From NCBI RefSeq assembly GCF_001424835.1, contig NZ_LMCQ01000003.1, positions 118,076 through 182,075 of the forward strand: DNA of 64,000 nucleotides, read 5' to 3'. The position numbers and the translations under genes are program-made. This DNA is from Variovorax sp. Root318D1. Its GTDB lineage: Bacteria; Pseudomonadota; Gammaproteobacteria; Burkholderiales; Burkholderiaceae_C. Under the pieces are notes generated by a model, which was not told the origin of the DNA, made no database searches, and saw only the letters and a list, made by a program, of their open reading frames with translations. This document shows positions 8,974-39,773 of this stretch, piece by piece; position 1 is the first letter of the stretch; the number at the start of each line of letters is the position of its first letter.

Positions 8974-8998
8974 ATTTTGTGGCGAGCGCCACGCCCAG

Positions 8999-10279: not shown

Positions 10280-10346
10280 TGGATGACCTGCGTGGCGGTG
10301 TTTCCAGTGGGCCCGAGATAGAGCCTAATTTTCATGTCAGAAAACT

Positions 10347-10370
10347 TTGCGCTGCGGAGACAAAGCGCAA
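10347..10370. promoter_or_regulatory. Inverted repeat in the codA-cysC divergent gap
   Basis: TTGCGCT (10347-10353) and AGCGCAA (10364-10370) form a dyad with a 10-base centre between the divergent codA and cysC genes. It could be a regulator site. No consensus promoter was recognised with confidence. Confidence 0.3.
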
Positions 10371-10430
10371 GAAAGTGCTGCCTATCCTCTCATGCTCCGA
10401 TATACCAAGCTTGTCCAAAGGCCGAAAGTC

Positions 10431-12085: not shown

Positions 12086-12109
12086 AAGGGGCGCCGACCG
12101 AGATTTGGC

Positions 12110-13482: not shown

Positions 13483-13491
13483 GTCGAATTT

Positions 13492-13589
13492 CTCCCTCCC
13501 CTTCCGGGGGAGGGTTGGGGTGGGGGCAGGCGGCGCTCGCTGTGGACGCCGATGCCCCCATCCCAGCCTTCCCCCGGGAGGGGAAGGAG
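13492..13589. repeat. GC-rich palindromic intergenic repeat (BIME-like)
   Basis: Two arms of about 37 bp (13492-13528 and 13553-13589) are near-perfect inverted copies of a CCCCCA(C/T)CCCAGCC(T/C)-type unit, separated by about 24 bases. It fills the gap between the two permease genes. Its left end supplies the ribosome binding site of the downstream permease gene. A related copy lies at 16286-16400. Confidence 0.85.
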
Positions 13590-13612
13590 CAAGACCGAAG
13601 AGCGCAGACTCG

Positions 13613-25982: not shown

Positions 25983-26294
25983 TTGTCATCGACTGCTCAG
26001 CCCCCCATTCCCGCCGTTGGCGATTCACCTGAACAGTCGCCGATTGAAAAAGAATTGGCCGTCCTGCTTGTGAACGCGCTCAATCTAGAAGTGGCACCCG
26101 AAGACATCGTGCCGACCGATCCGCTGTACGGCGAAGGCCTCGGCCTCGACTCGATCGATATCCTCGAAGTTGCGCTCGAAGTCTCCCGGCGCTACGGCTT
26201 CCAGCTGCGCTCTGACGACGAGCGCAACCAACAGATCTTCCAGTCGCTGCGCACGCTCGCGACCCACGTCGCCCAGCATCGCAGCGCTTCCTGA
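25983..26294 (+). CDS. Acyl carrier protein of the aryl-polyene/xanthomonadin-like cluster
   Basis: This 103-residue acyl carrier protein has the phosphopantetheine attachment motif GLDSIDILE (Ser57). It has an N-terminal extension of about 20 residues compared with housekeeping AcpP. The start is TTG at 25983, fixed by a strong AGGAGG six to eleven bases upstream. It should carry the growing polyene chain. It is the first gene of a run of ten closely spaced plus-strand genes ending at 35511; the next gene starts three bases after its stop. Confidence 0.9.
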   Translation: MSSTAQPPIPAVGDSPEQSPIEKELAVLLVNALNLEVAPEDIVPTDPLYGEGLGLDSIDILEVALEVSRRYGFQLRSDDERNQQIFQSLRTLATHVAQHRSAS

Positions 26295-26297
26295 TCC

Positions 26298-26942
26298 ATG
26301 TCACGATGGCGACTGGCGCTCCTGCTGCTGGTGGGGGTGGCCTATGCCGGCCTCTCTCACTGGATGATGCTGTTCCACCCCACCGAGCCGTGGGCGGTGG
26401 TGGTGCTGCTCGGCCCGCTCTGGCTTGCCGCCATGGGCTTTGCCGCCAGCAAGTTCGGCCGCCTGGGTTTCATTGCGGCAATGCTGCTCGGCATTGCTGG
26501 CTTCGCGCTCGTGTTCCTGGGTGAAGCGGGCGACACCAACCGGCTCTATGTATTCCAGCACGTGGCCATCAACGGCCTGCTGTGCGGCTGGTTCGGCGCT
26601 TCGCTGCGCGGGCCGGGGCTTCCGCTGATCACGCAGTTCGCGCAGCGCGTGCATCCGCTCAAAGGCCACATGCTGGCCTACACCACGCAGCTCACCCGCA
26701 TCTGGACCGCTTATTTCGCTCTGGTGGTGGTGTCGTCCATCGTGGTTTACCTGACGCTGCCTTTTTCAGCCTGGTCGTTGCTCGCGAACGTGCTGACCCC
26801 GCTTTCGGTGACGCTTCTTTTCGTGGGCGAGCACCTGGTGCGCTATCGGCTGCATCCCGAATTCGAGCGCACGCGGCTCATCGATGCGGTGCGTGCGTTC
26901 CAGGGCACATCGACCATCGACCACGGCACCGGCGGCCGGTGA
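26298..26942 (+). CDS. COG4648 integral membrane protein of the polyene cluster
   Basis: The 214-residue protein has about six membrane helices and a basic loop. COG4648-type proteins occur consistently in aryl-polyene and xanthomonadin clusters next to the acyl carrier protein. Their job is unknown; database names such as ketosynthase are not supported by any ketosynthase motif here. The ATG follows the ACP stop by three bases. The C-terminal tail (RLIDAVRAFQGTSTI) is cytosolic by prediction. Confidence 0.8.
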   Translation: MSRWRLALLLLVGVAYAGLSHWMMLFHPTEPWAVVVLLGPLWLAAMGFAASKFGRLGFIAAMLLGIAGFALVFLGEAGDTNRLYVFQHVAINGLLCGWFGASLRGPGLPLITQFAQRVHPLKGHMLAYTTQLTRIWTAYFALVVVSSIVVYLTLPFSAWSLLANVLTPLSVTLLFVGEHLVRYRLHPEFERTRLIDAVRAFQGTSTIDHGTGGR

Positions 26943-26958
26943 AACAGGGGCCACCCGC

Positions 26959-28668
26959 GTGACCGCCGAAACCCGACTGCTGCCGCTGATTGCCAACCGG
27001 GACCTCGATGCCCCGCTGGCTTGGCGGGCCGGCGTGCCGGTCAGCACGCGGCAGTTCCTGGCCGACGTGGCCCGCTTCGCGCCAGAGCTACCGGCGGAGG
27101 GGAAGGCCGTCAACCTGTGCGTCGACCGCTACGCCTTTGCCGTCAGCCTGGCGGCTGCGCTGGTGCGCGGCCATGCGAGCCTGTTGCCGCCCGACGCGCG
27201 GCCCGACACGCTGGCGCGCCTGCTCGAATCCGGCGGATCGAAGCTTTTCGCGCTGACCGACAATGCCGATCTCGCCACGCTTGGCATGCCGCGCGTGCTG
27301 ATCGAGGACCGCTCCAGCCCTGAAGGCGGGGACGGCCTGGAGGTACCGCTCATCGACGGTGCCATGCACGCGGTGAGCCTGCTGACTTCCGGCTCCACCG
27401 GCGTGCCCCAGCCGCACGCCAAGCGATGGGAAACGCTGGTCGGCGATGTTGCGGTGGCCGTAGAGAGGCTCTCCAGCCTGCTCGGGCTGCCGTCACTCGC
27501 CGGCCTGACGCTGGTGGCAACCGTGCCGGTGCAACATAGCTATGGGTTGGAATCGTCCGCACTGCTGGCCATGCTCGGCGGCGCCGCGTTCGAAAGCGGA
27601 CGGCCGTTCTTTCCGGCCGATGTCGCCAGAACCCTGGAATCGGTTCCACGTCCGCGCGCGCTGGTCACCACGCCTTTCCACCTGAAGACGCTGCTTCTGT
27701 CGGGCACTGAACTGCCGGCGGTCGACCTGATTCTTTCTGCCACCGCGCCGCTGTCGCCGCAACTTGCGGCCCAGGCCGAGCAGGCGCTCGGGGGCGTGCT
27801 GATCGAAATTTACGGCAGCACCGAATCGGGACAAGTCGCCACCCGCCGCACCACGCAGAGCGAAATCTGGGAAAACTTCGGCAGCATCCGCGTGCATGTC
27901 GAGCCAGGCGAGGGCGACGGTCCCGAGCGCTTCATCTTCAGCGGCGATTTCCTGCCCGAGCCCACGCCCATGGCCGACGTGCTCGAACTGCTCGACGCGC
28001 GCCGCTTCCGGCTGTTCGGCCGCGCCAACGACCTGATCCACGTGGCGGGCCGGCGCAGTTCGCTCGCGCACCTGAACTATCACCTCAACAGCATTGCTGG
28101 CGTGCAGGACGGCGCGTTCTGGCTCCCCGACGAAGTGGCCGACGGCGTGGTGCGCCCCGTGGCCTTCGTGGTGGCGCCCACGCTCTCGGCCGGCGAAATC
28201 ATCGCCGCGCTGCGGCAGAGGCTGGAGCCGGTGTTCGTGCCGCGCCGCGTGGTGCAGGTGAAGGCTTTTCCGCGCGAAGGCACCGGCAAGCTCACGGTGC
28301 GGGCACTGCGTGAATTCGCACTCGCTCAGCTTGCGGACGACACCACCCCGGTGCAACTGGCGCATGCGGTGCCCATCGACCATCCGGCGTTCGCCGGCCA
28401 CTTTCCGGGCCAGCCGCTGTTGCCGGGCGCGCTGATCCTGGCCGAGGTGATGGAAGCCGTGCAGCGCGTGCCGGCGCTGGTCGCGCGCCTCGGCAGCCAT
28501 CCCACGCTGGCGGCCGCCAAGTTTCTCGCGCCCGTGCGGCCCGGCAGCATGCTCTTGATCGAGCTGCATCCCGAGTCCGGCGCCGCGCGCGGCGTGCGCT
28601 TCGACGTGCGCTGCGACGGCGTGGTGGCTGTCACCGGCCGCTTGGCCGCTGTGCAAGAGTCCGCGTGA
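26959..28668 (+). CDS. AMP-dependent acyl ligase fused to a hotdog dehydratase domain
   Basis: The 569-residue protein has an adenylate-forming domain: LLTSGSTGVPQPHAK at residues 141-155, IYGSTESGQVATRR, and RLFGRANDLIHVAGRR. From about residue 469 a FabZ/FabA-like hotdog domain follows (IDHPAFAGHFPGQPLLPGAL, then AEVMEAV with the catalytic acid). The ligase would activate a 3- or 4-hydroxybenzoate starter for loading onto the ACP, and the hotdog would dehydrate 3-hydroxyacyl intermediates. GTG at 26959 was chosen as start: AGGGG lies upstream, and an earlier ATG (26884) would overlap the previous gene by 59 bases. Confidence 0.87.
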   Translation: MTAETRLLPLIANRDLDAPLAWRAGVPVSTRQFLADVARFAPELPAEGKAVNLCVDRYAFAVSLAAALVRGHASLLPPDARPDTLARLLESGGSKLFALTDNADLATLGMPRVLIEDRSSPEGGDGLEVPLIDGAMHAVSLLTSGSTGVPQPHAKRWETLVGDVAVAVERLSSLLGLPSLAGLTLVATVPVQHSYGLESSALLAMLGGAAFESGRPFFPADVARTLESVPRPRALVTTPFHLKTLLLSGTELPAVDLILSATAPLSPQLAAQAEQALGGVLIEIYGSTESGQVATRRTTQSEIWENFGSIRVHVEPGEGDGPERFIFSGDFLPEPTPMADVLELLDARRFRLFGRANDLIHVAGRRSSLAHLNYHLNSIAGVQDGAFWLPDEVADGVVRPVAFVVAPTLSAGEIIAALRQRLEPVFVPRRVVQVKAFPREGTGKLTVRALREFALAQLADDTTPVQLAHAVPIDHPAFAGHFPGQPLLPGALILAEVMEAVQRVPALVARLGSHPTLAAAKFLAPVRPGSMLLIELHPESGAARGVRFDVRCDGVVAVTGRLAAVQESA

Positions 28669-29666
28669 TGAAGCACACCGATGCCGAAACGCGCGCCGTG
28701 AACGACGCAGCGCAAGCGGGGCACCGCGGCGACTGGGCGCACACGCCCGAGCGCAGCAACATGCTGGCCCTGCGTCTCATCTGCCTTGTGGCGCTGGTGT
28801 GCGGCCGGCATGTCACGCGCCTGCTGCTGCCGCCGATCAGCCTGTACTTTCTCTTGTTCGCGCCCGCGCCGCGTCGCCACATCAAGCGCTACCTGTTCAG
28901 GGCCATCGGTCCGCACGCCGGCTGGATCGACGGCTACCGCCTGCTGCATGCCTTTGCCTCCACCGTGCTCGACCGCGTGTATTTCTTGCGCGGGCGCATG
29001 AACCTGTTCGACGTGAATGTAAAAGGCAACCCCGCGCTGGAAGCCGAGGCGCTGGGCGGACGCGGCGCCTTCCTGCTGGGTGCGCACGTCGGCAGCTTCG
29101 AGGCAATGGGCGCCTGCAAGCAAAAAAGCGAGCACAAGCAAGAGCTTCGGCTCGCGATGCTGATGTATCCCGACAATGCGCAGCGCATCAACGCCATCCT
29201 CAACGCCATCAGCCTGCCCGAACTGCGGCCTCACGTGATCGCGCTGGGCCGCCCCCATTCGATGCTGGCGCTGCGCGACTGGCTCGATGGCGGCGGCCTC
29301 GGCGGCATGCTCGCCGACCGCACCCTGCCGGGCAGCGAAGACCAGCCGGCGCAGCAGCGCGGCAACACCATCGTGCTGCCATTCCTCGGCCAGCCGGCAA
29401 GTTTCAACGACGGCCCGTTCCGCCTTGCGGCGCTGCTGCGGCGCAAGGTGTTCTTCATGGCCGGCCTCTATGGCGGGGGCGCGCGCTACGATGTTCAGTT
29501 CGACCTTTTGGCCGACTTCAGCGAGCGGTCAATCGATCCCGCCGAGCGGGAACGCCGCATCCAGGCGGCGGTCGAAGCCTACGTGGCGCGCCTGGAAGCG
29601 CTGTGCCGCGCCTATCCGTACAACTGGTTCAACTTTCATGATTTCTGGCTCGAAGATTCGGTTTGA
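28668..29666 (+). CDS. LpxL/HtrB-like acyltransferase of the polyene cluster
   Basis: The 332-residue protein belongs to the lauroyl-type lipid acyltransferases. It has an N-terminal membrane segment (about residues 33-60), the HX4E catalytic pair in GAHVGSFEAMG, and LADRTLPGS. Homologues in aryl-polyene clusters are thought to attach the polyene or a fatty acid to a lipid anchor in the inner membrane. The ATG overlaps the preceding stop (TGATG); a GTG one codon earlier is possible. The 3' end overlaps the next gene by 29 bases. Confidence 0.85.
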   Translation: MKHTDAETRAVNDAAQAGHRGDWAHTPERSNMLALRLICLVALVCGRHVTRLLLPPISLYFLLFAPAPRRHIKRYLFRAIGPHAGWIDGYRLLHAFASTVLDRVYFLRGRMNLFDVNVKGNPALEAEALGGRGAFLLGAHVGSFEAMGACKQKSEHKQELRLAMLMYPDNAQRINAILNAISLPELRPHVIALGRPHSMLALRDWLDGGGLGGMLADRTLPGSEDQPAQQRGNTIVLPFLGQPASFNDGPFRLAALLRRKVFFMAGLYGGGARYDVQFDLLADFSERSIDPAERERRIQAAVEAYVARLEALCRAYPYNWFNFHDFWLEDSV

Positions 29667-30252
29667 CTGGCTGTGCAGGAGCTTGCTGCTGGCAATGGCC
29701 TGCTGCGCCGCGCCGGCCTGGGCTCTCGACCTGCCCGAGCTGATGGGGCTGCTCTCCAAGCAGAAAAGCGGTGAGGCCCGCTTCACCGAACAGCGCTTTG
29801 TGCACGGCCTCGAAGGCCCGCTCGATTCGCGCGGCACGCTGAGTTTCAACGCCCCCGACAAGCTGGTGCGGCGCACCTTGTCGCCACGCGAGGAGACGAT
29901 GGCGGTGGAAGGCAACACGCTCACGCTGTCGCGCGGCGGCCGCAACCGCACTCTGACGCTCGACAGCATGCCCGAACTGCTCGGCCTGGTCGAAGCCATG
30001 CGCGGCACACTGAGCGGCGACGGCACGACCTTGCAGCGGTATTTCCGCAGCACGGTGAGCGGCTCGGCCGCCAACTGGACGCTCGACCTGCTGCCGGCCG
30101 ACAGCCGGCTTGCCGCCCAGGTGCGCAGCATCCGCATCAGCGGGCGCGCCAGCGAGGTGATCGGCCTCGAAATGGAATTCGTGGGCGGTGACCGCTCGGT
30201 CATGAGCATCACGCCCGAACGCCCGGGCGCCGCCGGACGCACCACGCCGTGA
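29638..30252 (+). CDS. LolA-like outer-membrane lipoprotein carrier of the polyene cluster
   Basis: This 204-residue periplasmic protein has a signal peptide (about residues 1-29, ending PAWA). It has a LolA-related domain with KQKSGEARFTEQRFV and SPREETMAVEGNTLTLSRGG. Cluster-linked LolA-like proteins are thought to move lipid-anchored polyene across the periplasm together with an MMPL exporter. The ATG at 29638 starts the signal peptide inside the end of the acyltransferase gene. The stop overlaps the MMPL start (GTGA), which supports a joint role. Confidence 0.83.
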   Translation: MISGSKIRFDWLCRSLLLAMACCAAPAWALDLPELMGLLSKQKSGEARFTEQRFVHGLEGPLDSRGTLSFNAPDKLVRRTLSPREETMAVEGNTLTLSRGGRNRTLTLDSMPELLGLVEAMRGTLSGDGTTLQRYFRSTVSGSAANWTLDLLPADSRLAAQVRSIRISGRASEVIGLEMEFVGGDRSVMSITPERPGAAGRTTP

Positions 30253-32648
30253 AGGCACGCGAGGCCGGAGGAGGGCCGCCGAGCTGGCAGCGCCGCGCGG
30301 TGGTGCTGCTGGTGTGGGCCCTGGTCCTGCTCGGCGGCGCGCTGCAGATTGCGCGCACGCACTTCAGCGCAGACCTTTCGGCCTTCCTGCCCAAGAGCCC
30401 CGACGTGCGGCAGCAGGTGCTCATCGAGCAGCTGCAAAGCGGCGTGGCATCGCGCACGCTGATGCTCGGCATCGAAGGCGGTGCCAGCGCGGAGGTGCGC
30501 GCCGCGGTGTCGCGCGCTGTCGCCAAGGCCATGCGCGAAAGCCAGCTGTTCGACCTGATCCAGAACGGCGACACCGGTGATTGGAGCGAAGCCGGCACCT
30601 GGGTCTTCGAGCACCGCTACCAGCTCTCGCCCGGCGTGCGGCCCGAGCAGTTCACGGTCGCCGGCCTGCGCGACGCGATCTACGAAACGCTGTCGATGCT
30701 GGGCACGCCGGCCGGCAATGCGATCAAGCCATTGCTCGACCGCGATCCGACCGGCGAAACGCAGCGCATCGCCGTGGAGTTGACGCCGGCCAGCGCGCCG
30801 CGCAGCGAAAACGGCGTCTGGATGTCCCGCACCGCGCCGCGCGCGCTAATGATCGCCACCACACGCGCGGCGGGCAGCGATCTCGACGCGCAGGCCGTGG
30901 CCATCGCACGGGTGCAAGCAGCTTTCGATGCTGCAACGCAGGGCATCGCCGAGGCCAACAAGCCGAAGCTGCTGCTGAGCGGCCCGCCCGTTTTCTCGGT
31001 GCTGAGCCGCGACAAGATCAAGACCGAGGCGATTCACCTCGCCATCGTGGGCGGTATCGTGATGGGAGGCCTGCTGCTGCTCGCGTTCGCCTCGCCGCGC
31101 GCGCTGGTCATCGCGTTCCTGCCGGTGGCCACCGGCGTGGTGGTCGGAACCGCCGCGGTGAGCGTGGTGTTCGGCTCGGTGCACGGCATGACGTTGGGTT
31201 TCGGCAGCACGCTGATCGGGGAGACGGTCGACTACGCCATCTATTACCTGATCCAGGCCCGCGGCGCCGCCGTGGCCGGCACCGGCTGGGCCCGCTGGCG
31301 CGAGGTGCATTGGCCTACCGTGCGGCTCGGACTGCTGACCTCGGTGTGCGGTTTCGCGGCTCTGGTGTTCTCGGGATTTCCGGGCCTGGCGCAACTGGGT
31401 GTGTTTTCCATCGCGGGGCTCGTGGCTGCCGCGCTGGCCACGCGCTATGCGCTGCCTATGCTCGCGCCGGATGGCGCCACCGGCATGGGCATGCGCAGGT
31501 ACATGGCGCAGGCTGCCGGCATGCTCGTTCGCGGCCTCCCGCGCCTGCGCTGGGTGTTGGCCGGGCTTGGCGCCGCCGCGCTGGTGGTGGTGATCTGGCA
31601 GGGCGGCCATCTCTGGCGCGCCGACCTCGGTGCGATGAGCCCGGTGCCCAAGTCGGCACAGCAACTCGACGAAATGCTGCGTGCCGATATCGGCACTGGC
31701 GACGGCGGCACGCTGGTGGTGGTCTACGGCGCCGATGAAGAAACGGCATTGCGCAACACTGAAGCCGCCACGGCACGGCTCGAGGCGCTGGTCGACAAGG
31801 GCGAGCTCGGCGGTTTCGAGGCCGTCACCCGCGTGCTGCCGAGCGTGGCGACGCAGGCGGCGCGCCTGGCCAGCCTGCCCGAGAGCGAAGCGCTGCGCAC
31901 CCGGCTGGCCGAGGCCACGCAAGGCTCGCCGCTTCCGGCCACGCGGCTCGGGCCTTTCCTGGCCGACGTCGAGGCCGCGCGCAAGCTGGCACCGGTGCGG
32001 CGCGCCGACCTGACCGGCGGGCCACTCGGCTCGGTGGTCAACACGCTCATGTACCAGCGCCCGGGCGGCGGCTGGTCGACGCTGGTGGTTCTGCACCCTG
32101 GTCCGAACTTCAACGCAGGCCGGCTCGAAAAGGCGCTCGCGGGCGTGCCCGAAGTGCAGGTGGTCGACGTCGGCCGCGAGTTGGCGGGGCTGTATCAGCG
32201 CTACCTGCACGAGGCCTTCGTGCAGGTGCTGCTCGGCGCGCTGGCCGTGGTGGTGCTGCTCGGCATCTACCTGCGTTCAGGCAAGCGCCTGCTCGCGGTG
32301 TGCCAGCCGTTGGTCGTCGCAGTGGTGCTCACACTCGGCGGCATGGCCGTGCTTCAGGTCCCATTGGGCATCCTGCATCTGGTCGGGTTGTTGCTGATCG
32401 TGGCGGTGGGTTCCAACTACGCGCTGTTCTTCGACCAGTTGCGCGTGGCCGGGCGGGCCGACGAGGACACGCTGGCGTCGCTGATGCTGGCCAACCTGAC
32501 CACGGTGGTGTCTTTCGGGTTGATTGCGATCTCGGACATCCCGGCGCTGTCGTCGATCGGCCGTGTGGTCGCGCCGGGTGCCTTGCTGGCCTTGTTGCTG
32601 TCGGCCGCATTTGCCCGGCGATTGGGGCCACCGCCCGCGCACGGCTGA
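30249..32648 (+). CDS. MMPL/RND-type exporter of the polyene cluster
   Basis: This 799-residue inner-membrane transporter has two halves. Each half has one N-terminal helix, a periplasmic loop, and a five-helix bundle. Motifs include FGSTLIGETVDYAIYYLIQ in the first half and VAVGSNYALFFDQLR in the second, where the acidic residues serve proton coupling. It matches the COG4258 exporters found in aryl-polyene and xanthomonadin clusters. GTG at 30249 overlaps the LolA-like stop. It probably exports the lipid-linked pigment towards the outer membrane. Confidence 0.88.
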   Translation: MKAREAGGGPPSWQRRAVVLLVWALVLLGGALQIARTHFSADLSAFLPKSPDVRQQVLIEQLQSGVASRTLMLGIEGGASAEVRAAVSRAVAKAMRESQLFDLIQNGDTGDWSEAGTWVFEHRYQLSPGVRPEQFTVAGLRDAIYETLSMLGTPAGNAIKPLLDRDPTGETQRIAVELTPASAPRSENGVWMSRTAPRALMIATTRAAGSDLDAQAVAIARVQAAFDAATQGIAEANKPKLLLSGPPVFSVLSRDKIKTEAIHLAIVGGIVMGGLLLLAFASPRALVIAFLPVATGVVVGTAAVSVVFGSVHGMTLGFGSTLIGETVDYAIYYLIQARGAAVAGTGWARWREVHWPTVRLGLLTSVCGFAALVFSGFPGLAQLGVFSIAGLVAAALATRYALPMLAPDGATGMGMRRYMAQAAGMLVRGLPRLRWVLAGLGAAALVVVIWQGGHLWRADLGAMSPVPKSAQQLDEMLRADIGTGDGGTLVVVYGADEETALRNTEAATARLEALVDKGELGGFEAVTRVLPSVATQAARLASLPESEALRTRLAEATQGSPLPATRLGPFLADVEAARKLAPVRRADLTGGPLGSVVNTLMYQRPGGGWSTLVVLHPGPNFNAGRLEKALAGVPEVQVVDVGRELAGLYQRYLHEAFVQVLLGALAVVVLLGIYLRSGKRLLAVCQPLVVAVVLTLGGMAVLQVPLGILHLVGLLLIVAVGSNYALFFDQLRVAGRADEDTLASLMLANLTTVVSFGLIAISDIPALSSIGRVVAPGALLALLLSAAFARRLGPPPAHG

Positions 32649-33490
32649 TGGGACAATCCCGCGCCATGTCTTCCGCTTCCGCCGCATCGTCCGAATCCTG
32701 GCCCTGGCCCCCAGCCATTCGCGCCAGCGCGGCCTGGCACGTGGCGGCCATCGGCGTGGGCGCCCTGGTGCCGGGCGCCATGCCCTGGGCCATCGGTGCC
32801 ATCGTGCTGAACCATGCGCTGATCACTGGCGCGGGGCTTACGCCGCGCAGCAACCTGCTGGGCCCCAACGTCACGCGCCTGCCCGAGGCGGCCGGCGCCC
32901 GGCGCCAGGTGGCCATCACAATCGACGACGGGCCAGATCCCGAGGTCACGCCGAGGGTGCTGGACCTGCTGGATGCGCACGGCCAGCGCGCCACCTTCTT
33001 CTGCATTGCCGAGCGCGTGCTTGCCCACCCGGCATTGGCGCGCGAGATCGTGGCGCGGGGCCACAGCATCCAGAACCACACCGCGCGGCATCGGCACAAT
33101 TTTTCTTTTCTAGGCCCCCGCGGCTTTGCCAGCGAGATTGCGCGGGCGCAAGACATCCTGGCCGAAACCACCGGCCAAAGGCCTACCTGTTTCCGCGCGC
33201 CAGCCGGCTTGCGCAATCCGTTCCTGGAGCCCGTGCTGCACCGGCTCGGCTTGTCGCTCGTAAGCTGGACGCGCCGCGGCTTCGACACGCGCGAAGGCGA
33301 CCCGGCCAAGGTCATGGCGCGCCTCGCCCGCAACCTACAGGCGCGCGACATCCTGCTTCTGCACGACGGCAACGCCGCGCGCACCCCTGAAGGAACCCCC
33401 GTTTTGCTGGAGGTATTGCCCTTGCTTCTCGAACGCTTGCGCGCTGGCGGACTGCGTGCCGTCACCCTGCCGGAAGGCCTTGAACCATGA
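32648..33490 (+). CDS. Polysaccharide deacetylase (NodB domain) with N-terminal membrane segment
   Basis: The 280-residue protein has a hydrophobic N-terminal hairpin (about residues 25-62) and then a NodB domain. Metal and catalytic residues are seen in ITIDDGPDPEVT and GHSIQNHTARHRH, and LLLHDGN is the final motif. Family members remove N- or O-acetyl groups from glycans. Its place inside the pigment cluster suggests it trims a sugar on the pigment or its anchor, perhaps added by the facing family 2 glycosyltransferase; this is inference. The ATG at 32648 overlaps the exporter stop; ATG 32666 is an alternative. Confidence 0.85.
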   Translation: MGQSRAMSSASAASSESWPWPPAIRASAAWHVAAIGVGALVPGAMPWAIGAIVLNHALITGAGLTPRSNLLGPNVTRLPEAAGARRQVAITIDDGPDPEVTPRVLDLLDAHGQRATFFCIAERVLAHPALAREIVARGHSIQNHTARHRHNFSFLGPRGFASEIARAQDILAETTGQRPTCFRAPAGLRNPFLEPVLHRLGLSLVSWTRRGFDTREGDPAKVMARLARNLQARDILLLHDGNAARTPEGTPVLLEVLPLLLERLRAGGLRAVTLPEGLEP

Positions 33491-34251
33491 GCGCCATGCC
33501 GCCTCTTTCCACCGATACAGCCTGGCGCGAACTTCACGAGGCCGCCACGGTTCCCTACAAGAAGGGAGGCACCTTCGCCTGGCATTTCGCGCGCGGCAAG
33601 CTGGGGCGCGACCCCGTGTTTCGCGGGCTGCTCGAACGCGGCCTGATCGACTCGGCGCATCGCCGTGTGGTCGATATCGGCTGCGGGCAGGGGCTCTTCG
33701 CGAGCTTGCTGGCGTCGATGAGCCGCATGCAGGCGCATGGCCGCTGGCCCTCGTCGTGGAAGGCCACGCCGGTAGCAGCCGACTACACGGGCATCGAACT
33801 GATGCCCAAGGACGTGGCGCGTGCCGCGGCGTCCATCGGGCACCTGCAACCGGCGCCACGGCTGCTTTGTGCCGACATGTGCACGGCACCGCTGCCCGAG
33901 TGCGACCTGGTCGTGATTCTCGACGTGCTGCACTATGTCGACATCGAGGCGCAAGACAGCGTGCTGCAGCGCGTGCGCGACGCGTTGCGGCGCGGCAGCA
34001 ATACGAATGCCCGGCTGCTGCTGCGCATTGGCGACGCGTCGAGCAAGCGTGGGTTCGCCATCAGCCAGTGGGTCGATCGCACCGTGACACGCATTCGCGG
34101 CCACAAGGTGTCGCCCACCTGGGGCCGCCCGCTGGCCGATTGGGTGGCGGTGCTGCAGCGGCTGGAGTTTCGCGTGCAGAGCATTCCGATGAGCGAAGGC
34201 ACGCCCTTCGCCAACGTGCTGCTCGTGGCCGACCTGGAGCCCACCGCGTGA
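33487..34251 (+). CDS. SAM-dependent methyltransferase of the polyene cluster
   Basis: The 254-residue class I methyltransferase has the SAM-binding motif VVDIGCGQGLFASLL near residues 61-75, LVVILDVLHYVD as motif II, and an RWGRPLADW-like C-terminal part. Aryl-polyene clusters contain such an enzyme, which methylates the aromatic head. The ATG overlaps the deacetylase stop (ATGA). The stop overlaps a GTG just before the dehydratase gene, so translation is coupled. Confidence 0.82.
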   Translation: MSAMPPLSTDTAWRELHEAATVPYKKGGTFAWHFARGKLGRDPVFRGLLERGLIDSAHRRVVDIGCGQGLFASLLASMSRMQAHGRWPSSWKATPVAADYTGIELMPKDVARAAASIGHLQPAPRLLCADMCTAPLPECDLVVILDVLHYVDIEAQDSVLQRVRDALRRGSNTNARLLLRIGDASSKRGFAISQWVDRTVTRIRGHKVSPTWGRPLADWVAVLQRLEFRVQSIPMSEGTPFANVLLVADLEPTA

Positions 34252-34253
34252 CC

Positions 34254-34721
34254 ATGGCTCCGCAGACACTCGACCGCGCGGGGATTGCCGAGCGCATTCC
34301 GCACAGCGGCAGCATGTGCCTGCTCGAGCGGCTCGAGCGCTGGGACGCCGAGTCCATCCATTGCAGCACCCACACGCACCTGCAGCCCGACAATCCGTTG
34401 CGGACGACGGGTGGATTGCTTGCGCCCAACGCGATCGAGTACGCGGCCCAGGCCATGGCGCTGCATGGCGGCCTGCTGGCCGCCGAGGGAAGCACACCAT
34501 CGGCCGGCTTTCTGGCGAGCGCGCGCAACGTGCGCTTCTCGGTCGTGCGGCTCGACGACATTGCTGGCGCGCTGCAGGTGCAGGCGAGACGCCTTTCGGG
34601 CGACACGAACCAGATCCTCTATGAATTCGCGGTGAACGACAGCGCCGGGCGTGTGCTGGCCGAGGGCCGCGCCGTGGTGGTGCTGAACACGCCGCTTGCA
34701 ACCGGAGCCACGACGCCATGA
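34254..34721 (+). CDS. 3-hydroxyacyl-ACP dehydratase-like hotdog protein (COG4706)
   Basis: This 155-residue hotdog-fold protein has the COG4706 opening IAERIPHSGSMCLLERL, APNAIEYAAQAMALHGG with the helix-borne Glu and His, and a beta-rich C-terminus (ALQVQARRLSG). It would dehydrate the 3-hydroxyacyl chain during polyene growth, working with the hotdog domain fused to the ligase. The ATG at 34254 is preferred; a GTG two codons earlier overlaps the methyltransferase stop. The stop overlaps a mini frame that links it to the reductase gene. Confidence 0.82.
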   Translation: MAPQTLDRAGIAERIPHSGSMCLLERLERWDAESIHCSTHTHLQPDNPLRTTGGLLAPNAIEYAAQAMALHGGLLAAEGSTPSAGFLASARNVRFSVVRLDDIAGALQVQARRLSGDTNQILYEFAVNDSAGRVLAEGRAVVVLNTPLATGATTP

Positions 34722-34783
34722 GTCCCGCCGGCCGCCCGAAGGGGACTTGCACCACAGCCCGCAGGGCGGAGGTTTACCCATGA
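34718..34783 (+). CDS. Possible 21-residue linker frame through an intergenic repeat
   Basis: An ATG overlaps the dehydratase stop (ATGA at 34718-34721), and the frame's TGA overlaps the reductase start (ATGA at 34780-34783). The 21 codons run through the repeat at 34722-34779. It may carry ribosomes across the gap and keep the two genes coupled; a functional peptide is not implied. Confidence 0.3.
   Translation: MSPAGRPKGTCTTARRAEVYP
34722..34779. repeat. Short palindromic intergenic repeat before the reductase gene
   Basis: CCGCCC (34732-34737) and GGGCGG (34764-34769) frame a segment with GAAGGGGACTTGCACCACAG. The right arm runs into GGAGG (34768-34772), the ribosome binding site of the reductase gene. 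It is a type that I recall as recurrent in related genomes, but I cannot confirm this here. Confidence 0.5.
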
Positions 34784-35511
34784 CTCTTGAAGGAAAACGC
34801 GCGCTGATTACCGGCGCCAGCGGTGCCTTGGGCGCCGCCATGGCCGAGCGCCTGGCGCGCGACGGCGCCACGGTGCTGTTGCATGCCAACTCGCGCCCCG
34901 AGGCGGTGGAGCAACTGGCGGCTGCCATCGTGGCCGCGGGCGGCAAGGCCGAGTGCCACGTGTTCGACCTGCGCAGCGACGACGCCTGCCGGGTGGCGTG
35001 CGAACGCATGCTCGAAGGCGGGCCGGTGCAGATCGTCGTCAACAACGCGGGCGTGCACGACGACGCCGTGCTGCCCGGCATGCGCGCCGAGCAGTGGCAC
35101 AAGGTCATCGACATTTCGCTCAACGGATTTTTCCGTGTGACGCAGCCGTTGCTGCTGCCGATGATGCGGACGCGCTGGGGGCGCGTCATCAATCTTTCTT
35201 CGGTGTCGGCACTGACCGGTAATCGCGGGCAGGTCAACTATGCCGCGGCCAAGGGCGCGCTCAACAGCGCGACCAAGGCGCTCTCGCTCGAAGTGGCGTC
35301 GCGCGGCGTGACCGTCAACGCCATTGCGCCGGGCATCATCGCCTCGCCCATGGCCGATGCGGTGTTCGACCCCGCCATGGTCAACCAGATGGTCCCGATG
35401 AAGCGTGCCGGAACGCCGCAGGAAGTGGCGGCGCTGGCTTCTTTTCTGGTGAGCGACGAGGCGGCCTACATCACGGGGCAGGTGATCTCGATCAACGGCG
35501 GGATGATCTAG
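34780..35511 (+). CDS. FabG-like 3-oxoacyl-ACP reductase of the polyene cluster
   Basis: This 243-residue short-chain dehydrogenase has the NADPH motif TGASGALG (residues 12-19), NNAG, a catalytic Ser in NLSSVSALTG, and YAAAKGA holding the Tyr-Lys pair. It would reduce the 3-oxo group of the ACP-bound chain, matching the ketoreductase of aryl-polyene clusters. The ATG at 34780 is fixed by GGAGG 8-12 bases upstream; a longer frame runs back through the repeat. It is the last plus-strand gene of the cluster. Confidence 0.9.
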   Translation: MTLEGKRALITGASGALGAAMAERLARDGATVLLHANSRPEAVEQLAAAIVAAGGKAECHVFDLRSDDACRVACERMLEGGPVQIVVNNAGVHDDAVLPGMRAEQWHKVIDISLNGFFRVTQPLLLPMMRTRWGRVINLSSVSALTGNRGQVNYAAAKGALNSATKALSLEVASRGVTVNAIAPGIIASPMADAVFDPAMVNQMVPMKRAGTPQEVAALASFLVSDEAAYITGQVISINGGMI

Positions 35512-35524
35512 CCCGCCGAGTTTC

Positions 35525-36301
35525 TCAAGACTGGAACGGCGGCATGCGCCGCGCCTTGCGCCACAGAAGCCCGGGCAGGCGCAAGGCGAATTCGAACATC
35601 AGCCGCGTGTGCATCCAGGTCAGCAGCACGTTGTCGCGCCCATAGCGAAAGTGCGACACCCCGCCTTCCGCGGCCGTCAGGTATTTCACCGGCGCATCGA
35701 TGTTCACTGGCTTGACGCCGCGCCATGCGAGCCGCACGACGGCTTCGGTGTCGAAGTCGAATCGGCGCATCCACGGCTGACGCGTCATCACGCCGATCAG
35801 TTCGGCCACCGGGTACACGCGAAATCCGTAGAGCGAGTCGCCCACGCCGGCAAACAGGGTCTCGAGCTGGGTCCAGCCGTTGGACACGCGCCGCCCGCGC
35901 ACCCGCAGCAGCGGGGCGGAAGCATCGAATACTGGTCGGCCTAGCACCATGGTTTCCGGCCGGGCCTGCGATGCATGCATGAAAGCAGGAATCAGATCGG
36001 CCGGATGCTGGCCGTCGGAATCCATGGTCAATGCGTGGGTGAAGCCAGCTTTCCGAGCCTCGCGCAGGCCGTGCAGCACGGCCGCGCCCTTGCCCTGGTT
36101 CTGCGGCAGCAGCCACACCCGCAGACCCGGGTCGCCTTCGGCCATTTGCTGCAGGCGCTCGCCGGTGCCATCGGTGCTGCCGTCCACCACCACCCAGACA
36201 GGATTCCACTGAGCGCGCGCCGCTTCGACCGTCGAGAACAGGCGTTCGCCCGTGTTGTAGCTGGGGATCAGGACAAGGTGTGTGCGCGAGGCGTCTGGCA
36301 T
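35525..36301 (-). CDS. Family 2 glycosyltransferase
   Basis: This 258-residue GT2 enzyme has VLIPSYNTGE near residue 10, VVVDGSTDGTGE near 36, and the DxD-like metal motif in TMDSDGQHPADL near 92. RFDFDTEAVVRLAWRGV and a C-terminal amphipathic region follow. It resembles dolichyl-phosphate-mannose-synthase-like enzymes. In this setting it may glycosylate the pigment or its anchor lipid. It overlaps the upstream acyltransferase gene by 34 bases on the same strand and has no visible ribosome binding site, so it is probably coupled. It converges with the reductase gene across 13 bases. Confidence 0.85.
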   Translation of the reverse strand: MPDASRTHLVLIPSYNTGERLFSTVEAARAQWNPVWVVVDGSTDGTGERLQQMAEGDPGLRVWLLPQNQGKGAAVLHGLREARKAGFTHALTMDSDGQHPADLIPAFMHASQARPETMVLGRPVFDASAPLLRVRGRRVSNGWTQLETLFAGVGDSLYGFRVYPVAELIGVMTRQPWMRRFDFDTEAVVRLAWRGVKPVNIDAPVKYLTAAEGGVSHFRYGRDNVLLTWMHTRLMFEFALRLPGLLWRKARRMPPFQS

Positions 36302-37071
36302 GCGGGGGACGCGTCGGTGGCGCGCTGTTCCATGTTTTTGCGAAAGTATTGTTCCAGCTCCGCTTGCAGCAGGTGGCTGTCCGGAAGCGGCGCGAACCGC
36401 TCGCCCAGCCGCAGCTTGAAGACGATGGGTAGCGGCGGCACGCGCCACAGCGGCCAGCCCTTGCTGAGGTAGGGCGAGTCGGTCTCGATGAACACGGTCT
36501 GGATCGGCGCCTGCGCGAGCTTGGCGATCAGCGTCACGCCGTGGCCGAAGGGGTTGACCGGCGGAGTTACCGTGCGCGTGCCTTCGGGAAAGATCACCAG
36601 CTGGCCGCCGTTGCGCAAGTCGGCCACGGCCAGCCGCACCATGGTGCGCGCGGATTCGTTGCTGATGTAGCGCGCGAGCCGCGCACCCGCGCCAAGGAAG
36701 ATGTTGTGCAGCAGGTCGGCCTTCATGATGCAGGCGCTGCGCGGCAGCCGCGCCACCAGCAGCAGGGCGTCGAGCATCGTGGGATGGTTGGCGACGAAGA
36801 TCACGCCGGGCTCGTTGCGCATCGGGTCCAGGCAGCTGGCGTCGATGCGCATCATCCCGGTCACGGAGGCCAGGCCCCAGAACATGCGGTACGCAAGGGC
36901 GATGGTCAGCCGCCCCAGCGTGCGGGCAGGCGCCTCCGGCATCACCGGATAAAGCAGCATGGCGACGAAATTCCAGGCCAGCGAAATGAGGCCGAGGAAA
37001 AGCAGCTGCGCGTAGAGCATCAACGCGAGTGGAATGGCCGTGAGAATGCGCAGCACGCGGGTCATCGACAT
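36268..37071 (-). CDS. PlsC-like 1-acyl-glycerol-phosphate acyltransferase family protein
   Basis: This 267-residue acyltransferase has two N-terminal membrane segments (about residues 8-45). The catalytic HX4D motif is NHPTMLD near residue 95, followed by the glycerol-phosphate-binding FPEGTRT. Homologues occur in xanthomonadin clusters, where an acyltransferase is needed for pigment attachment to lipid. The 3' end overlaps the glycosyltransferase start. The ATG at 37071 begins SMTRVLRIL; no strong ribosome binding site is seen. Confidence 0.85.
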   Translation of the reverse strand: MSMTRVLRILTAIPLALMLYAQLLFLGLISLAWNFVAMLLYPVMPEAPARTLGRLTIALAYRMFWGLASVTGMMRIDASCLDPMRNEPGVIFVANHPTMLDALLLVARLPRSACIMKADLLHNIFLGAGARLARYISNESARTMVRLAVADLRNGGQLVIFPEGTRTVTPPVNPFGHGVTLIAKLAQAPIQTVFIETDSPYLSKGWPLWRVPPLPIVFKLRLGERFAPLPDSHLLQAELEQYFRKNMEQRATDASPACQTPRAHTLS

Positions 37072-37101
37072 GGGGTCGTCGGTCCGATCGATCGCAACGG
37101 G

Positions 37102-38139
37102 TCAGGCCCGCAGGCGACCCGGCGCGACCGCATGGGCTTCGATCTCGACCAAGAGGTCGCTGCGGCAGATGTCCGCCTCCAGGTAGACGGCATGACGGAT
37201 CATCGGCGCGCCGGCACCGACCGCGCTTTCGATCACGCCGCGCACCTTGTCGGTGTCCGCCGGATGTCGGACGTAGACCACGCAGTCGAGCGTGGCGAGC
37301 GAGAACGCTCCCGAGACGTGGGTGACCTGGCTGTTGGCGGCCGCAATCACGGCTTCGAGATTGCGCAGCGTTTCTCGGGTTTGCTCCAGTACGTCGCCGT
37401 GATGAACGGTTTCGTGGCCCACGATGCTCGCGGTGCCCGAGATGAATAGCGCCACCTCGCCATTGCCGATGTCGGCCAGCGCGGCACGCGAGAAGGTGGG
37501 CGAACGCGGCCCGTAGGTTTCCGGGTAGCGGTAGGCCGAGACCTGGCGCGGATTTTCGACCGGCAACGGCGCCTTCTGGCCGGCCAGGAAGCGGATCGAC
37601 AACGCGCCCTGGTGGATGCCCAGCGCGCAAGCCGCGGGCGCGCCTTCGAAGGCGGCGCGGCCGGCTTCGAAGAAGGCCTCCTGGCGTCCGAGGTTGAACT
37701 GGCGGTAGCGCTCCAGCCCGCCGCCGTCGGCATTGATCTGCGGCAGGTAGTTCCAGATGCGCAGCAGGTGCGGTGTGGCGGCCTGGTCCAGCGTCTTGAA
37801 CAGATCGCGATAGGCGCGGTGGGCAATTTCGGCGAGGTTCTGCTTTTCGACCGATTCATCGATATCGATGGCGCCCAGCAGCCAATGGCCGTCGCTGCGC
37901 CAGCGGACGATGCCGGTGGTGCCCGATTCGACGTGCGCCGCGGTCACGTGCCAGACATCGGCCATGGCGCCTTGCGCCGAGAGAACGCGCGCATTGACCG
38001 TGGGCATCCACGCCAGCTCGTGCGGCGTGCCGTAGCCGAGCGCCGCAAAAGGCGCGGCACCGTTCGCGGCCAGCGCGAGGCAGGCGGGCAGTGAAAGGCG
38101 CTCGACGCGCAGAGGTGAGGTTTCGCCCTGGACTTGCAC
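37102..38139 (-). CDS. xanB2: Chorismatase (XanB2/Hyg5 type), hydroxybenzoate synthase
   Basis: The 345-residue protein belongs to the chorismatase family (FkbO, Hyg5, XanB2), distant in fold to YjgF/RidA trimers. Hallmarks are ENPRQVSAYRYPETYGPRSP and RAALADIG, then GTASIVGHETVHHGDV, and a C-terminal DLLVEIEA. XanB2 in Xanthomonas turns chorismate into 3- and 4-hydroxybenzoate, feeding xanthomonadin and ubiquinone. The cluster context points to this activity rather than FkbO-type hydrolysis, but sequence alone does not settle the subtype. GTG at 38139 lies two bases after the stop of the UbiE-like gene. It replaces the tyrosine ammonia-lyase that primes other aryl polyenes. Confidence 0.85.
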   Translation of the reverse strand: MQVQGETSPLRVERLSLPACLALAANGAAPFAALGYGTPHELAWMPTVNARVLSAQGAMADVWHVTAAHVESGTTGIVRWRSDGHWLLGAIDIDESVEKQNLAEIAHRAYRDLFKTLDQAATPHLLRIWNYLPQINADGGGLERYRQFNLGRQEAFFEAGRAAFEGAPAACALGIHQGALSIRFLAGQKAPLPVENPRQVSAYRYPETYGPRSPTFSRAALADIGNGEVALFISGTASIVGHETVHHGDVLEQTRETLRNLEAVIAAANSQVTHVSGAFSLATLDCVVYVRHPADTDKVRGVIESAVGAGAPMIRHAVYLEADICRSDLLVEIEAHAVAPGRLRA

Positions 38140-38141
38140 GG

Positions 38142-38930
38142 TCAGCCGGCCTCGACGATGGTTTCCGGTTTGCGGGCCATGTACTCGGAGAAGACACCCA
38201 GGCTTGCGTGCCGGCGCACGTCGGTGAAACCGGCGGCGCGCAGTGCCTCAAGCACGCGTTCGGGCGGAATGCAGGCCTCGATGGTGTCCCAGTAATAGCG
38301 CCACAGCTCCGAGGTATTGGAACGGCGTCCGACCACGCGGGCGATCAGCGGCACCACCGCGCGCATGTAGCCCTTGAGCAGCGCGGTGGCGATGCGGCCG
38401 TTCGGCTTGGTGATCTCGAGCACCACCAGACGTCCGCCGGGGCGCAGCACGCGATGGAACTCACTGAAGGCCGCCGCCACGTCGCTGATGTGGCGCATGG
38501 CATAGCCCATGCTCACGAAGTCGCAGCTGGCGTCGGGCCGGGGCAGTGCTTCTGCCACGCCGGCAACCAGTTCGACGCCAGGCAGGTCGATCTGCTCCAT
38601 CATGCCGACGCTGGGATCGACACCCGTCAATTTGCCGGTCGGGCCGATGATCTTGAGCGCCTCGCGGGCGACCAAGCCGGTGCCGATGCCGACGTCGAGC
38701 ACCTGCGCGCCCTGGGCCAGCCCGGCCTGCGTCAGCGCGTCCCGCCGGTAGGACGGGCCCGTGCCGAAGGCGAGCACGCTCTCGATGCGGTCGTAGTCGG
38801 CGGCGGTGCTGTCGAAGATGCGACGCAGGAACGCCTGGTGCTCCGTCTCGTTCTTGTAGTACAGCGGCAGGGGGGTGTGAGGCGGCAGGATGGTCGGTTT
38901 CCCGGGCCCGACGGAAGGCGATGGCGTCAT
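38142..38930 (-). CDS. UbiE-like class I methyltransferase
   Basis: This 262-residue SAM-dependent methyltransferase has VLDVGIGTGLVAREAL, GVDPSVGMM, and FVSMGYAMRHISDVAAAFSE, which resembles UbiE/COQ5. A C-terminal YYWDTIEACIPPERVLEALR segment is outside typical UbiE. It lies directly before the chorismatase gene, two bases apart. It may act on a hydroxybenzoate-derived product, either pigment head or quinone. The ATG at 38930 was chosen because homology starts soon after; an upstream ATG at 39083 would overlap the yebC start region. The ribosome binding site is weak. Confidence 0.8.
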   Translation of the reverse strand: MTPSPSVGPGKPTILPPHTPLPLYYKNETEHQAFLRRIFDSTAADYDRIESVLAFGTGPSYRRDALTQAGLAQGAQVLDVGIGTGLVAREALKIIGPTGKLTGVDPSVGMMEQIDLPGVELVAGVAEALPRPDASCDFVSMGYAMRHISDVAAAFSEFHRVLRPGGRLVVLEITKPNGRIATALLKGYMRAVVPLIARVVGRRSNTSELWRYYWDTIEACIPPERVLEALRAAGFTDVRRHASLGVFSEYMARKPETIVEAG

Positions 38931-39047
38931 CGGGGGATTATCACCAAAAGGGAGCGCCGCCTCGGCGCCGACTCGCCAGCCGTTGTGTGCGCCGGACAGT
39001 AAACTCGGAGCCTGCTTTGAAAACACAAGACTGCGAGATAGAAAGCC

Positions 39048-39773
39048 ATGGCCGGACATAGCAAATGGGCAAACATTCAGCACCGGAAGGGCCGCCAGGA
39101 CGAGAAGCGCGGCAAGCTCTGGACGCGCGCCATTCGCGAAATCACGGTGGCAGCGCGCGCCGGCGGGGGTGACCTGAGCGCCAACCCCCGGCTGCGGCTG
39201 GCGGTAGAAAAAGCCAAGGCAGTCAACCTGCCGATCGACACCGTCAAGCGCAACATCGACAAGGCCACCGGCAATCTAGAAGGCGTCAATTACGAAGAAA
39301 TTCGTTACGAAGGGTACGGCATCGGTGGCGCGGCGATCATTGTCGACACCATGACCGACAACCGGGTGCGCACCGTGGCCGAAGTACGCCACGCCTTCTC
39401 CAAGCACGGCGGCAACATGGGAACGGAAAACTCGGTGGCCTTCCAGTTCAAGCACTGCGGGCAGATCATCTTCGCGCCCGGCACCGATGAAGACAAAGTC
39501 ATGGAAGCCGCGCTCGAAGTCGGCGCCGAAGACGTCGTCACCGACGATGACGGCGCCATCGAGGTGATCACGGCCGTTGCCGATTTCGAAACCGTCAAGA
39601 ACGCGCTCGAAGCCGCCGGCCTCAAGCCCGAGGTGGCCGAGGTCACCATGCGGGCCGAAAACACGATCGAACTGACCGGCGAAGACGCCGCCAGGATGCA
39701 GAAGCTGCTCGATGTGCTGGAAGACCTGGACGATGTCCAAGAGGTCTATCACAACGCCGCACTTTCCGAATGA
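39048..39773 (+). CDS. yebC: YebC/PmpR family transcriptional regulator or translation factor
   Basis: The 241-residue protein has the canonical start [18 protein letters not shown] and the three-domain YebC fold, with [14 protein letters not shown] in the middle and [19 protein letters not shown] near the end. Family members have been described as DNA-binding regulators and, more recently, as factors that relieve ribosome stalling. The ATG has an AGAAAG site upstream. It is divergent from the UbiE-like gene and 38 bases before purD. Confidence 0.94.

Follow-up and report, generated by a model that had tools for sequence, protein, structure and literature searches.

A xanthomonadin/arcuflavin-type aryl-polyene pathway very probably encoded at unlinked loci in Variovorax sp. 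Root318D1

The analyzed stretch of DNA (hereafter the window) comprises 64,000 nucleotides of contig C3 of Variovorax sp. Root318D1. At positions 25983-39083 it carries fourteen genes arranged in two converging arms. All fourteen frames are open, and those passing a composition filter had coding-type third positions. The following genes, families, and positions were observed:

25983..26294, + strand: ACP of polyene synthase (PRK09184 family); NF006617/PRK09184, 126.6 bits (cut-off 70)
26298..26942, + strand: membrane protein in the position of ApeG/COG4648; positional orthologues in relatives
26959..28668, + strand: candidate hydroxybenzoate:ACP ligase fused to a hotdog dehydratase domain; PF00501, PF13193 (AMP-binding_C), and PF07977 (FabA-like) in one frame
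28665..29666, + strand: LpxL-like acyltransferase, weak assignment; NF005120, E 2e-5, below cut-off; position conserved
29638..30252 (start uncertain, 29638-29695), + strand: LolA-like periplasmic carrier; PF19574 (LolA_3), 80.4 bits
30249..32648, + strand: RND/MMPL exporter; TIGR03480 (HpnN-like), E 1e-17, below cut-off
32648..33490, + strand: polysaccharide-deacetylase-like protein; PF01522, 106 bits
33487..34251, + strand: methyltransferase MT1; PF13649 / PF08241
34251..34254, + strand: junction of MT1 and dehydratase; 2 bases from the stop to the ATG used
34254..34721, + strand: ApeP-like dehydratase; profile match to 6qsr_B, 7.8e-10
34780..35511, + strand: FabG-type ketoreductase; NF004200, 340.8 bits (cut-off 273)
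35525..36301, - strand: GT2 glycosyltransferase; PF00535, 71.8 bits
36268..37071, - strand: PlsC-type acyltransferase; PF01553, 54.7 bits
37102..38139, - strand: chorismatase, predicted 3-hydroxybenzoate-forming (Hyg5/XanB2-like); PF21168 (N domain), 141 bits (cut-off 27)
38142..39083, - strand: UbiE-like methyltransferase MT2; PF01209, 106 bits

The original prediction described two facing arms of fourteen genes that include a chorismatase and lack a ketosynthase (KS), in agreement with the frames, the families, and the gene order of relatives. Specifically, for thirteen of the fourteen genes, relatives (G143 and G058, for example) have homologues in an unchanged order, with a pair of KS and chain-length factor (CLF) genes inserted. 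The fourteenth gene, MT2, has homologues at the cluster in some relatives only; it adjoins the chorismatase gene in G122 and stands apart from it in several others, and its frame extends to 39083 with a plausible internal start near 38930. Most of the gene names proposed earlier were borne out, among them the AMP-ligase-hotdog fusion, whose three domains lie in one ORF. The LpxL-like name stayed weak, with no PDB match when an alignment of the protein was searched against solved structures, and family searches of the membrane protein yielded no consistent Pfam family and did not confirm its COG4648 identity. The hotdog domain of the fusion is presumably ApeI-like, judging by its position, and ligase and hotdog are two separate genes in many relatives. 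The window ACP shares 50-93% identity with the ACPs that relatives carry in their xanthomonadin-type arms. The LolA-like protein also matched NF053544 (flexirubin LolA2) with E 3e-9, below cut-off. Searched alone, the dehydratase had no Pfam or NCBIfam match; the 6qsr_B hit, a FabA/FabZ-type dehydratase, was obtained with a profile of 12 orthologues, one of which matched the Pfam ApeP-like family (0.0023).

The chorismatase scored 233.6 bits against TIGR04444, short of the cut-off of 325. It retains Gly240, Cys327, and Glu334 of Hyg5 (residue list taken from the available part of PMC7170507), and Hyg5 Gly173 is replaced by Ala, because of which the Hyg5 and XanB2 types are not distinguishable here. 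The sequence points to an enzyme that would supply 3-hydroxybenzoate, as belongs to a xanthomonadin/arcuflavin-type pathway. The earlier preference for the xanthomonadin type over the Ape type, with a hydroxybenzoate starter made via the chorismatase, was upheld.

A search of contig C3 for a KS gave no PF00109 match, and tblastn over 22-42 kb with KS, CLF, and ACP queries returned the one ACP as its sole match. In a comparison of gene order, arms of relatives carry a KS-CLF pair between the methyltransferase and dehydratase genes, and this pair is cleanly absent from the window junction. No thioesterase was found in the window cluster by reading of the open frames. This absence and that of a second ACP had been taken as oddities, a view that was overstated, since neither is unusual for the xanthomonadin type: the available text of PMC3691225 lists the thioesterase as missing from the Lysobacter cluster, and that of the E. 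coli paper (PMC8253772) describes xanthomonadin clusters without a second ACP. Therefore, only the KS and CLF are truly absent. An Ape-type cluster would include a second ACP, an ApeK thioesterase, and an ApeR KS; the window cluster has one ACP, and no KS match was obtained in 22-42 kb.

That the KS is encoded elsewhere, one of the options offered by the original prediction, was supported by a whole-genome search. It found a KS-CLF pair followed by a halogenase on contig C12 (G000:C12, 62.3-66.1 kb), no less than some 190 kb from the window cluster:

L018 8788-10083: C12 KS; NF006618/PRK09185, 512 bits (cut-off 407)
adjoining the KS: half-length CLF; PF13723, 99 bits
after the half-length CLF: flavin halogenase; PF04820, 45.6 bits (cut-off 21)

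The C12 KS is the sole KS of the genome above the PRK09185 cut-off. The combination of a PRK09185 KS beside a half-length CLF, which belongs to the pathway, is therefore present on C12 instead of in the window. Among solved structures, the best matches of the KS were 7f28_B and then 6qsp_A, and those of the CLF were 6qsp_B (2e-17) and then 7f28_A, so that the KS and the CLF each match one chain in both of these complexes; 6qsp and 6qsr we take to be Xenorhabdus Ape proteins. The Cys and both His are retained in the C12-type KS. Gln162 is invariant in the C12-type CLF and is probably the counterpart of Gln166 in Lysobacter, without which pigment is lost according to the available part of PMC3691225. 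At all 74 readable named loci the C12-type CLF has a Cys at the KS nucleophile position, which 22 of 26 canonical half-length CLFs lack; it may therefore differ from them in priming or chain length. The other KSs of the genome include a dialkylresorcinol KS, a FabF-like KS, and type I PKS (two frames of PKS size). These two PKS-size frames and three loci were set aside as sources of the polyene KS by reading; the loci are L019, where a KS has its own ACP, L020, with a 736-aa frame beside an ACP, and L021, the fab operon.

Co-occurrence was observed at two scales. Of 150 genomes of the family, 21 had a genuine chorismatase match (G017, a 6e-4 fragment, being excluded), and a KS above the PRK09185 cut-off was present in 20 of these versus 20 of the 129 others. 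A set of 49 related genomes was drawn from the first 50 of 80 loci minus L122, the last 30 loci lying outside it. Genomes and loci were found via the C12 KS and come mostly from one genus, so that co-occurrence and KS retention partly reflect selection in the following counts: the chorismatase in all 49 and the ligase in 48, and exactly one PRK09185-type KS in all 49 among the candidates scored (in some genomes, 30 of 31-38 first-look candidates). A single match spanned the ligase and hotdog domains in 46 of the 49, and the ligase and chorismatase were 65-97% identical to the window proteins. KS and ligase lay on different contigs in 46 genomes, which does not prove distance for genes near a contig end, and 2.4-2.9 Mb apart in two. 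The CLF was retained at 74 of 74 readable loci and the halogenase was absent from 15 of them, a count made without the six loci that run into a contig end (L121, L129, L141, L156, L175, and L180). Root473 is one relative without the halogenase. At locus L189, from a MAG, a pair of the C12 type sits beside ketoreductase, dehydratase, exporter, LolA, LpxL, and ACP genes.

We consider it very probable that the window encodes most of a xanthomonadin/arcuflavin-type aryl-polyene pathway, predicted to give a yellow pigment, whose genes lie at unlinked loci, with the KS-CLF on C12. The ACP with the AMP-ligase and the ketoreductase with the dehydratase, also part of such a pathway, are all in the window. 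From these genes we infer the reaction order, the product, and the joint action of the C12 pair with the window genes. The chorismatase would form 3-hydroxybenzoate, which the ligase domain would load on the ACP; the C12 KS-CLF would elongate this starter with malonyl units, and the window ketoreductase and two dehydratases would yield the polyene. Tailoring of the ring may fall to the methyltransferases and, in this strain, also to the halogenase that adjoins the C12 KS. Attachment of the polyene and its transfer to the outer membrane may involve the acyltransferases, GT2, LolA-like carrier, and RND exporter. A dialkylresorcinol cluster lies on a third contig, C22, with a DarB-type KS (NF005293, 591 over a cut-off of 450; the narrower NF053539 (DarB), 462.5, below 550), a BtrH-type DarH (NF053550, 489.8 over a cut-off of 300), and a DarA assigned by position and gene order only, with no family match. 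By analogy with arcuflavin, this cluster and its BtrH-type acyltransferase would probably supply the ester partner. Because 20 of the 49 related genomes lack DarA, the dialkylresorcinol part is optional and a hybrid product is a guess.

The C22 cluster, too, combines a KS with a small partner gene adjoining an ACP, and in G005 dialkylresorcinol genes lie inside the polyene cluster, as would fit a role of the dialkylresorcinol KS (DarJ with DarK) in building the polyene as well. We regard this as highly improbable, as the C22 KS reaches 154 bits against the PRK09185 cut-off of 407, branches far from the C12-type KS in the KS tree (rows shortened), and at least 19 of the 20 genomes without DarA retain the ligase, the chorismatase, and the C12-type KS. 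An equally small chance is given to extension of the polyene by housekeeping FabF/FabB, with the C12 trio making something else: the trio does lie apart from the window cluster and the genome contains a FabF-bearing fab operon (L021, by reading), but the C12-type KS is the only aryl-polyene-family KS in the 49 genomes that share the ligase (48) and the chorismatase (49), and at L189 the C12-type pair adjoins polyene genes. The original prediction had named a FabB/FabF-built chain and an unusual pathway as options; no result favoured a FabB/FabF-built chain or a pathway without a KS, and the presence of an aryl-polyene KS of the PRK09185 family on C12 led us to reject the KS-less pathway. Least likely of all is that the window cluster no longer functions, having decayed and lost its KS. 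The canonical pair is indeed missing between MT1 and the dehydratase, but fourteen frames remain open, and the ligase and chorismatase are conserved throughout the 49 genomes at the identities given above.

Turning to the origin of the KS in a pathway split between the window and C12, the C12-type KS forms a clade separate from the canonical in-cluster KS (100/99, with the KS of G053, where C12-type KS and CLF are fused in one reading frame). It occurs alongside a canonical pair in three relatives and without one in Variovorax, Xenophilus, and a Rhizobacter MAG. The arms counted in relatives number 17, Ape-type arms (e.g., G111, G030, G076, and G139) and the G005 arm, which ends at a contig end, being outside this count. 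The idea that the C12 KS is the canonical pair moved was rejected: an AU test (p 5e-8) spoke against placing it among the in-cluster KSs from those genomes whose other cluster proteins are nearest; that group was taken from the tree of those proteins plus G094 and was named after a KS tree was known, and the test excludes the C12-type KS of G053 and three dialkylresorcinol KSs. Tentatively, and with less than even confidence, we suggest that the C12 pair is a second, halogenase-associated kind of polyene synthase that displaced the canonical KS-CLF at least twice and acts in trans. A KS displacement of this kind was not found in the literature searched.

A view of the cluster only can call a complete pathway incomplete: among the Variovorax-type genomes searched, the chain-building enzyme lies apart. 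Some relatives carry the canonical pair, some the second pair, and some both, and the halogenase has repeatedly been lost or gained next to a pair that was retained; these are natural experiments that make the determinants of aryl-polyene chain length and halogenation testable.

Unlinked loci of this type are known from Azoarcus and the pathway has been noted in Variovorax. With the Ape clusters of E. coli and Xenorhabdus, the Variovorax genes share KS:CLF, ACP, ligase, two dehydratases, and ketoreductase of related families. Ape clusters additionally hold a second ACP, a thioesterase, and ApeR as a third KS (available part of PMC8253772); the window cluster showed none of these extras and contains a chorismatase in their stead. 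With Lysobacter enzymogenes they share one ACP, two dehydratases, a KS and half-length CLF (ORF17/ORF16), a LolA-like carrier, and exporters; there the genes form one compact cluster, with no dialkylresorcinol genes mentioned in the available text, whereas the Variovorax KS-CLF is unlinked (PMC3691225). The Figure 5 legend of that paper places Variovorax paradoxus among the genomes with a KS-CLF pair; the ones it gives as lacking the halogenase are L. enzymogenes and Xylella. In Azoarcus sp. BH72, arcuflavin is made from unlinked arc loci, both essential by insertion mutants, and Variovorax paradoxus S110 is named as carrying both cluster types (PMC3949708, available part). Common to both systems are the chorismatase, ligase, ACP, KS and half-length CLF, ketoreductase, and dehydratases, as well as LolA, exporter, deacetylase, methyltransferase, glycosyltransferase, and halogenase, along with dialkylresorcinol clusters of similar make-up (PMC3949708). 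Ligase and dehydratase are separate genes in Azoarcus and fused in Variovorax. In Azoarcus, the chorismatase, reductase, and halogenase accompany the KS-CLF at a site distinct from the ACP/ligase arm (PMC3949708), whereas in Variovorax the chorismatase, ketoreductase, and ACP/ligase arm are together and it is the KS-CLF-halogenase trio that lies elsewhere.

The fourteen genes of the cluster, facing each other in two arms, were borne out by reading frames and base composition in a genome (5.75 Mb, 25 contigs) that is 99.99% complete. Assignment of gene families with NCBIfam and Pfam gave good support for the ACP (PRK09184), LolA_3, deacetylase, FabG, GT2 and PlsC genes, and confirmed the predicted fusion of an AMP-ligase to a hotdog domain, which is FabA-like. 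The chorismatase scored above the Pfam cut-off and under the NCBIfam cut-off, and the exporter was HpnN-like with a score under the cut-off. Two further calls fared less well in the family searches: the LpxL-like acyltransferase stayed weak and the COG4648 protein unconfirmed. The small dehydratase on its own had no match in NCBIfam or Pfam; a profile of 12 orthologues matched the FabA/FabZ-type dehydratase 6qsr_B (7.8e-10), and one of these 12 orthologues matched ApeP-like (0.0023). The window chorismatase keeps Gly240, Cys327 and Glu334 of Hyg5 (numbering from 5ag3). In the available text of PMC7170507, Gly and Cys at the corresponding sites are marks of 3-hydroxybenzoate formers and the corresponding Glu belongs to the chorismatase active site; a third mark described there, Gly at Hyg5 position 173, is Ala in the window.

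The observation that a chorismatase cluster stands here without a ketosynthase (KS) proved right. Contig C3, which carries the window, has no PF00109 match, and tblastn queries with KS and half-length chain-length factor (CLF) had no match at 22-42 kb of the window, where the dehydratase gene (start 34254) follows the first methyltransferase gene (MT1, end 34251). A PF00109 search of the whole genome yielded 15 matches, and reading around several of them led to three nearly abutting or overlapping genes at 62.3-66.1 kb of contig C12, which the lengths of the contigs place at least about 190 kb from the window cluster.

KS-CLF locus on contig C12 (coordinates of the extracted locus L018)
6302-7939, flavin halogenase, PF04820 match
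7946-8791, half-length CLF, PF13723, 99 bits
8788-10083, KS, NF006618/PRK09185, 512 bits (cut-off 407)

In the KS, the Cys and the two His are conserved. Against solved structures the KS profile matched 7f28_B and 6qsp_A and the CLF profile 6qsp_B and 7f28_A, so the two proteins match both chains of two entries. One of the earlier guesses, a KS encoded elsewhere, was confirmed by the genome-wide search: an unlinked KS-CLF pair solves the puzzle of the missing KS.

We then surveyed 150 genomes of the family. A PRK09185 KS was found above the cut-off in 40 and a chorismatase match in 22, including a fragment in G017 (6e-4). With G017 left out, the KS was present in 20 of 21 chorismatase genomes versus 20 of the remaining 129. 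The single exception was G081, whose chorismatase homologue (L072) was found without a ligase match and without an aryl-polyene KS above the cut-off. In those 20 genomes the KS lay within 10 kb of the chorismatase in 10, and farther away or on another contig in the other 10. Gene order in relatives, read by tblastn, was usually ACP, COG4648, ligase, hotdog, LpxL, LolA, MMPL, deacetylase, (MT1), KS, CLF, dehydratase and ketoreductase, with GT2, PlsC and chorismatase on the opposite strand, and rearrangements occur. KS-CLF preceded the dehydratase in 12 of the 17 xanthomonadin-type arms readable through to that gene. The five arms without it were those of the window, G122 (same genus), G071, G090 and one of the two G053 arms; all five genomes carry a KS of a separate clade, that of contig C12 (C12-type). 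G122 has the counterparts of the window's two arms (L074, L075) about 110 kb apart, with a second UbiE-like methyltransferase match after the first.

A scan with the C12-type KS as query gave 526 loci, of which the best 80 were kept, mostly from Variovorax and also from Xenophilus, Pseudacidovorax, Schlegelella and MAGs. The nearest KS among the matches listed was that of V. paradoxus DS1452 (99%). In 70 of these 80 loci the genes lie between an AmpG-like transporter and a response regulator. Beside the pair, 59 loci had the halogenase and 15 had none, with 6 loci unreadable at this point; when the other 74 were placed in a quick KS tree, presence of the halogenase switched 7 times, and well-supported branches force 5 of these switches. 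The CLF was present in all 74, where the KS is there by selection. In one MAG (Bin_66_1, L189) the C12-type KS, CLF and halogenase adjoin ketoreductase, dehydratase, exporter, LolA, LpxL and ACP genes, a direct link of this KS type to polyene genes, which means that it is not unlinked everywhere.

Searching 49 genomes, from the first 50 of the 80 loci, we found exactly one PRK09185 KS (E up to 1e-80) in each, a ligase in 48 and a chorismatase in all 49; since these genomes were chosen via the KS, the counts show how rarely the KS is found where the rest is missing, and not how often the rest lacks the KS. The KS and ligase were on different contigs in 46 genomes and 2.4-2.9 Mb apart in 2. The ligase and chorismatase lay within 20 kb in 27, farther apart in 10 and on different contigs in 11, so that the two-arm arrangement of the window is merely one state. 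Ligase and hotdog domain (window 26959-28668) are fused into a single gene here and in G122, G071 and 46 of the 49 genomes; many other relatives have them as two separate genes.

One clade of the KS tree (support 100/99) comprised the C12-type KSs of the source genome, G122, G071, G090, G005, G100 and G053. A tree of eight joined arm proteins grouped the source genome, G122 and G071 with G074, G060, G143, G053 and G098, and G090, G005 and G100 with G119 and G058. If the C12 KS were the canonical in-cluster KS moved elsewhere, the KSs of the source genome, G122 and G071 would group with those inside the clusters of G094 and of their relatives in the arm tree; this forced grouping was rejected (p 5e-8). 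Both KS kinds coexist in G005, G100 and G053. The simplest reading is that an old second KS-CLF pair took over upon loss of the canonical pair on two occasions, in the Variovorax-Xenophilus line and in G090. Acquisition of the C12-type pair by transfer in some lineages is also possible. Gln162 is invariant in C12-type CLFs and is probably the Gln needed in Lysobacter, as described in the available text of PMC3691225. A Cys occupies the KS nucleophile position of the CLF in 74 of 74 readable named C12-type loci versus 4 of 26 canonical CLFs. In G053 a single frame (L085, contig C2, minus strand, about 11907-14036) encodes the C12-type KS and CLF as a fusion, whose CLF part is without this Cys; the fusion directly adjoins a canonical KS-CLF pair and a halogenase.

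The genome also carries other KSs, including those of a second cluster:

7929-15732 of locus L016 (contig C22), dialkylresorcinol cluster

Its StlD/DarB-type KS scored 591 with NF005293 (cut-off 450) and did not reach the cut-off of the narrower DarB model NF053539, and its DarH, a BtrH-related acyltransferase, scored 489.8 (cut-off 300). Also in the cluster are ABC transporter genes, an ACP and a further KS with a small partner gene, and DarA was assigned by comparing its position and the order of the genes with the Azoarcus table in the available part of PMC3949708. DarA was found in 29 of the 49 related genomes. The two pathways are tied together by G005, whose polyene cluster contains the dialkylresorcinol genes. 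Elsewhere, two long frames of type I PKS size (1764 and 2525 aa; L001 on contig C5 and L002 on C23) have strong KS domains, and a small ACP and KS pair beyond the fab operon (L019 9348-10795, contig C21) adjoins, by reading, a PAP2-like membrane protein.

Displacement or separation of the KS in Variovorax was absent from the titles and abstracts of the open-licence papers listed by literature searches; the split may already be drawn for V. paradoxus S110 in figures or supplements of PMC3949708 or PMC3691225. In the available text of PMC3949708, the loci from which Azoarcus makes arcuflavin are unlinked, and S110 is named as having a xanthomonadin-like as well as a dialkylresorcinol cluster. 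Likewise, the Lysobacter study counts V. paradoxus among genomes with a KS and half-CLF pair (PMC3691225, available text). The window system belongs to a known kind of pathway and has had an interesting history.
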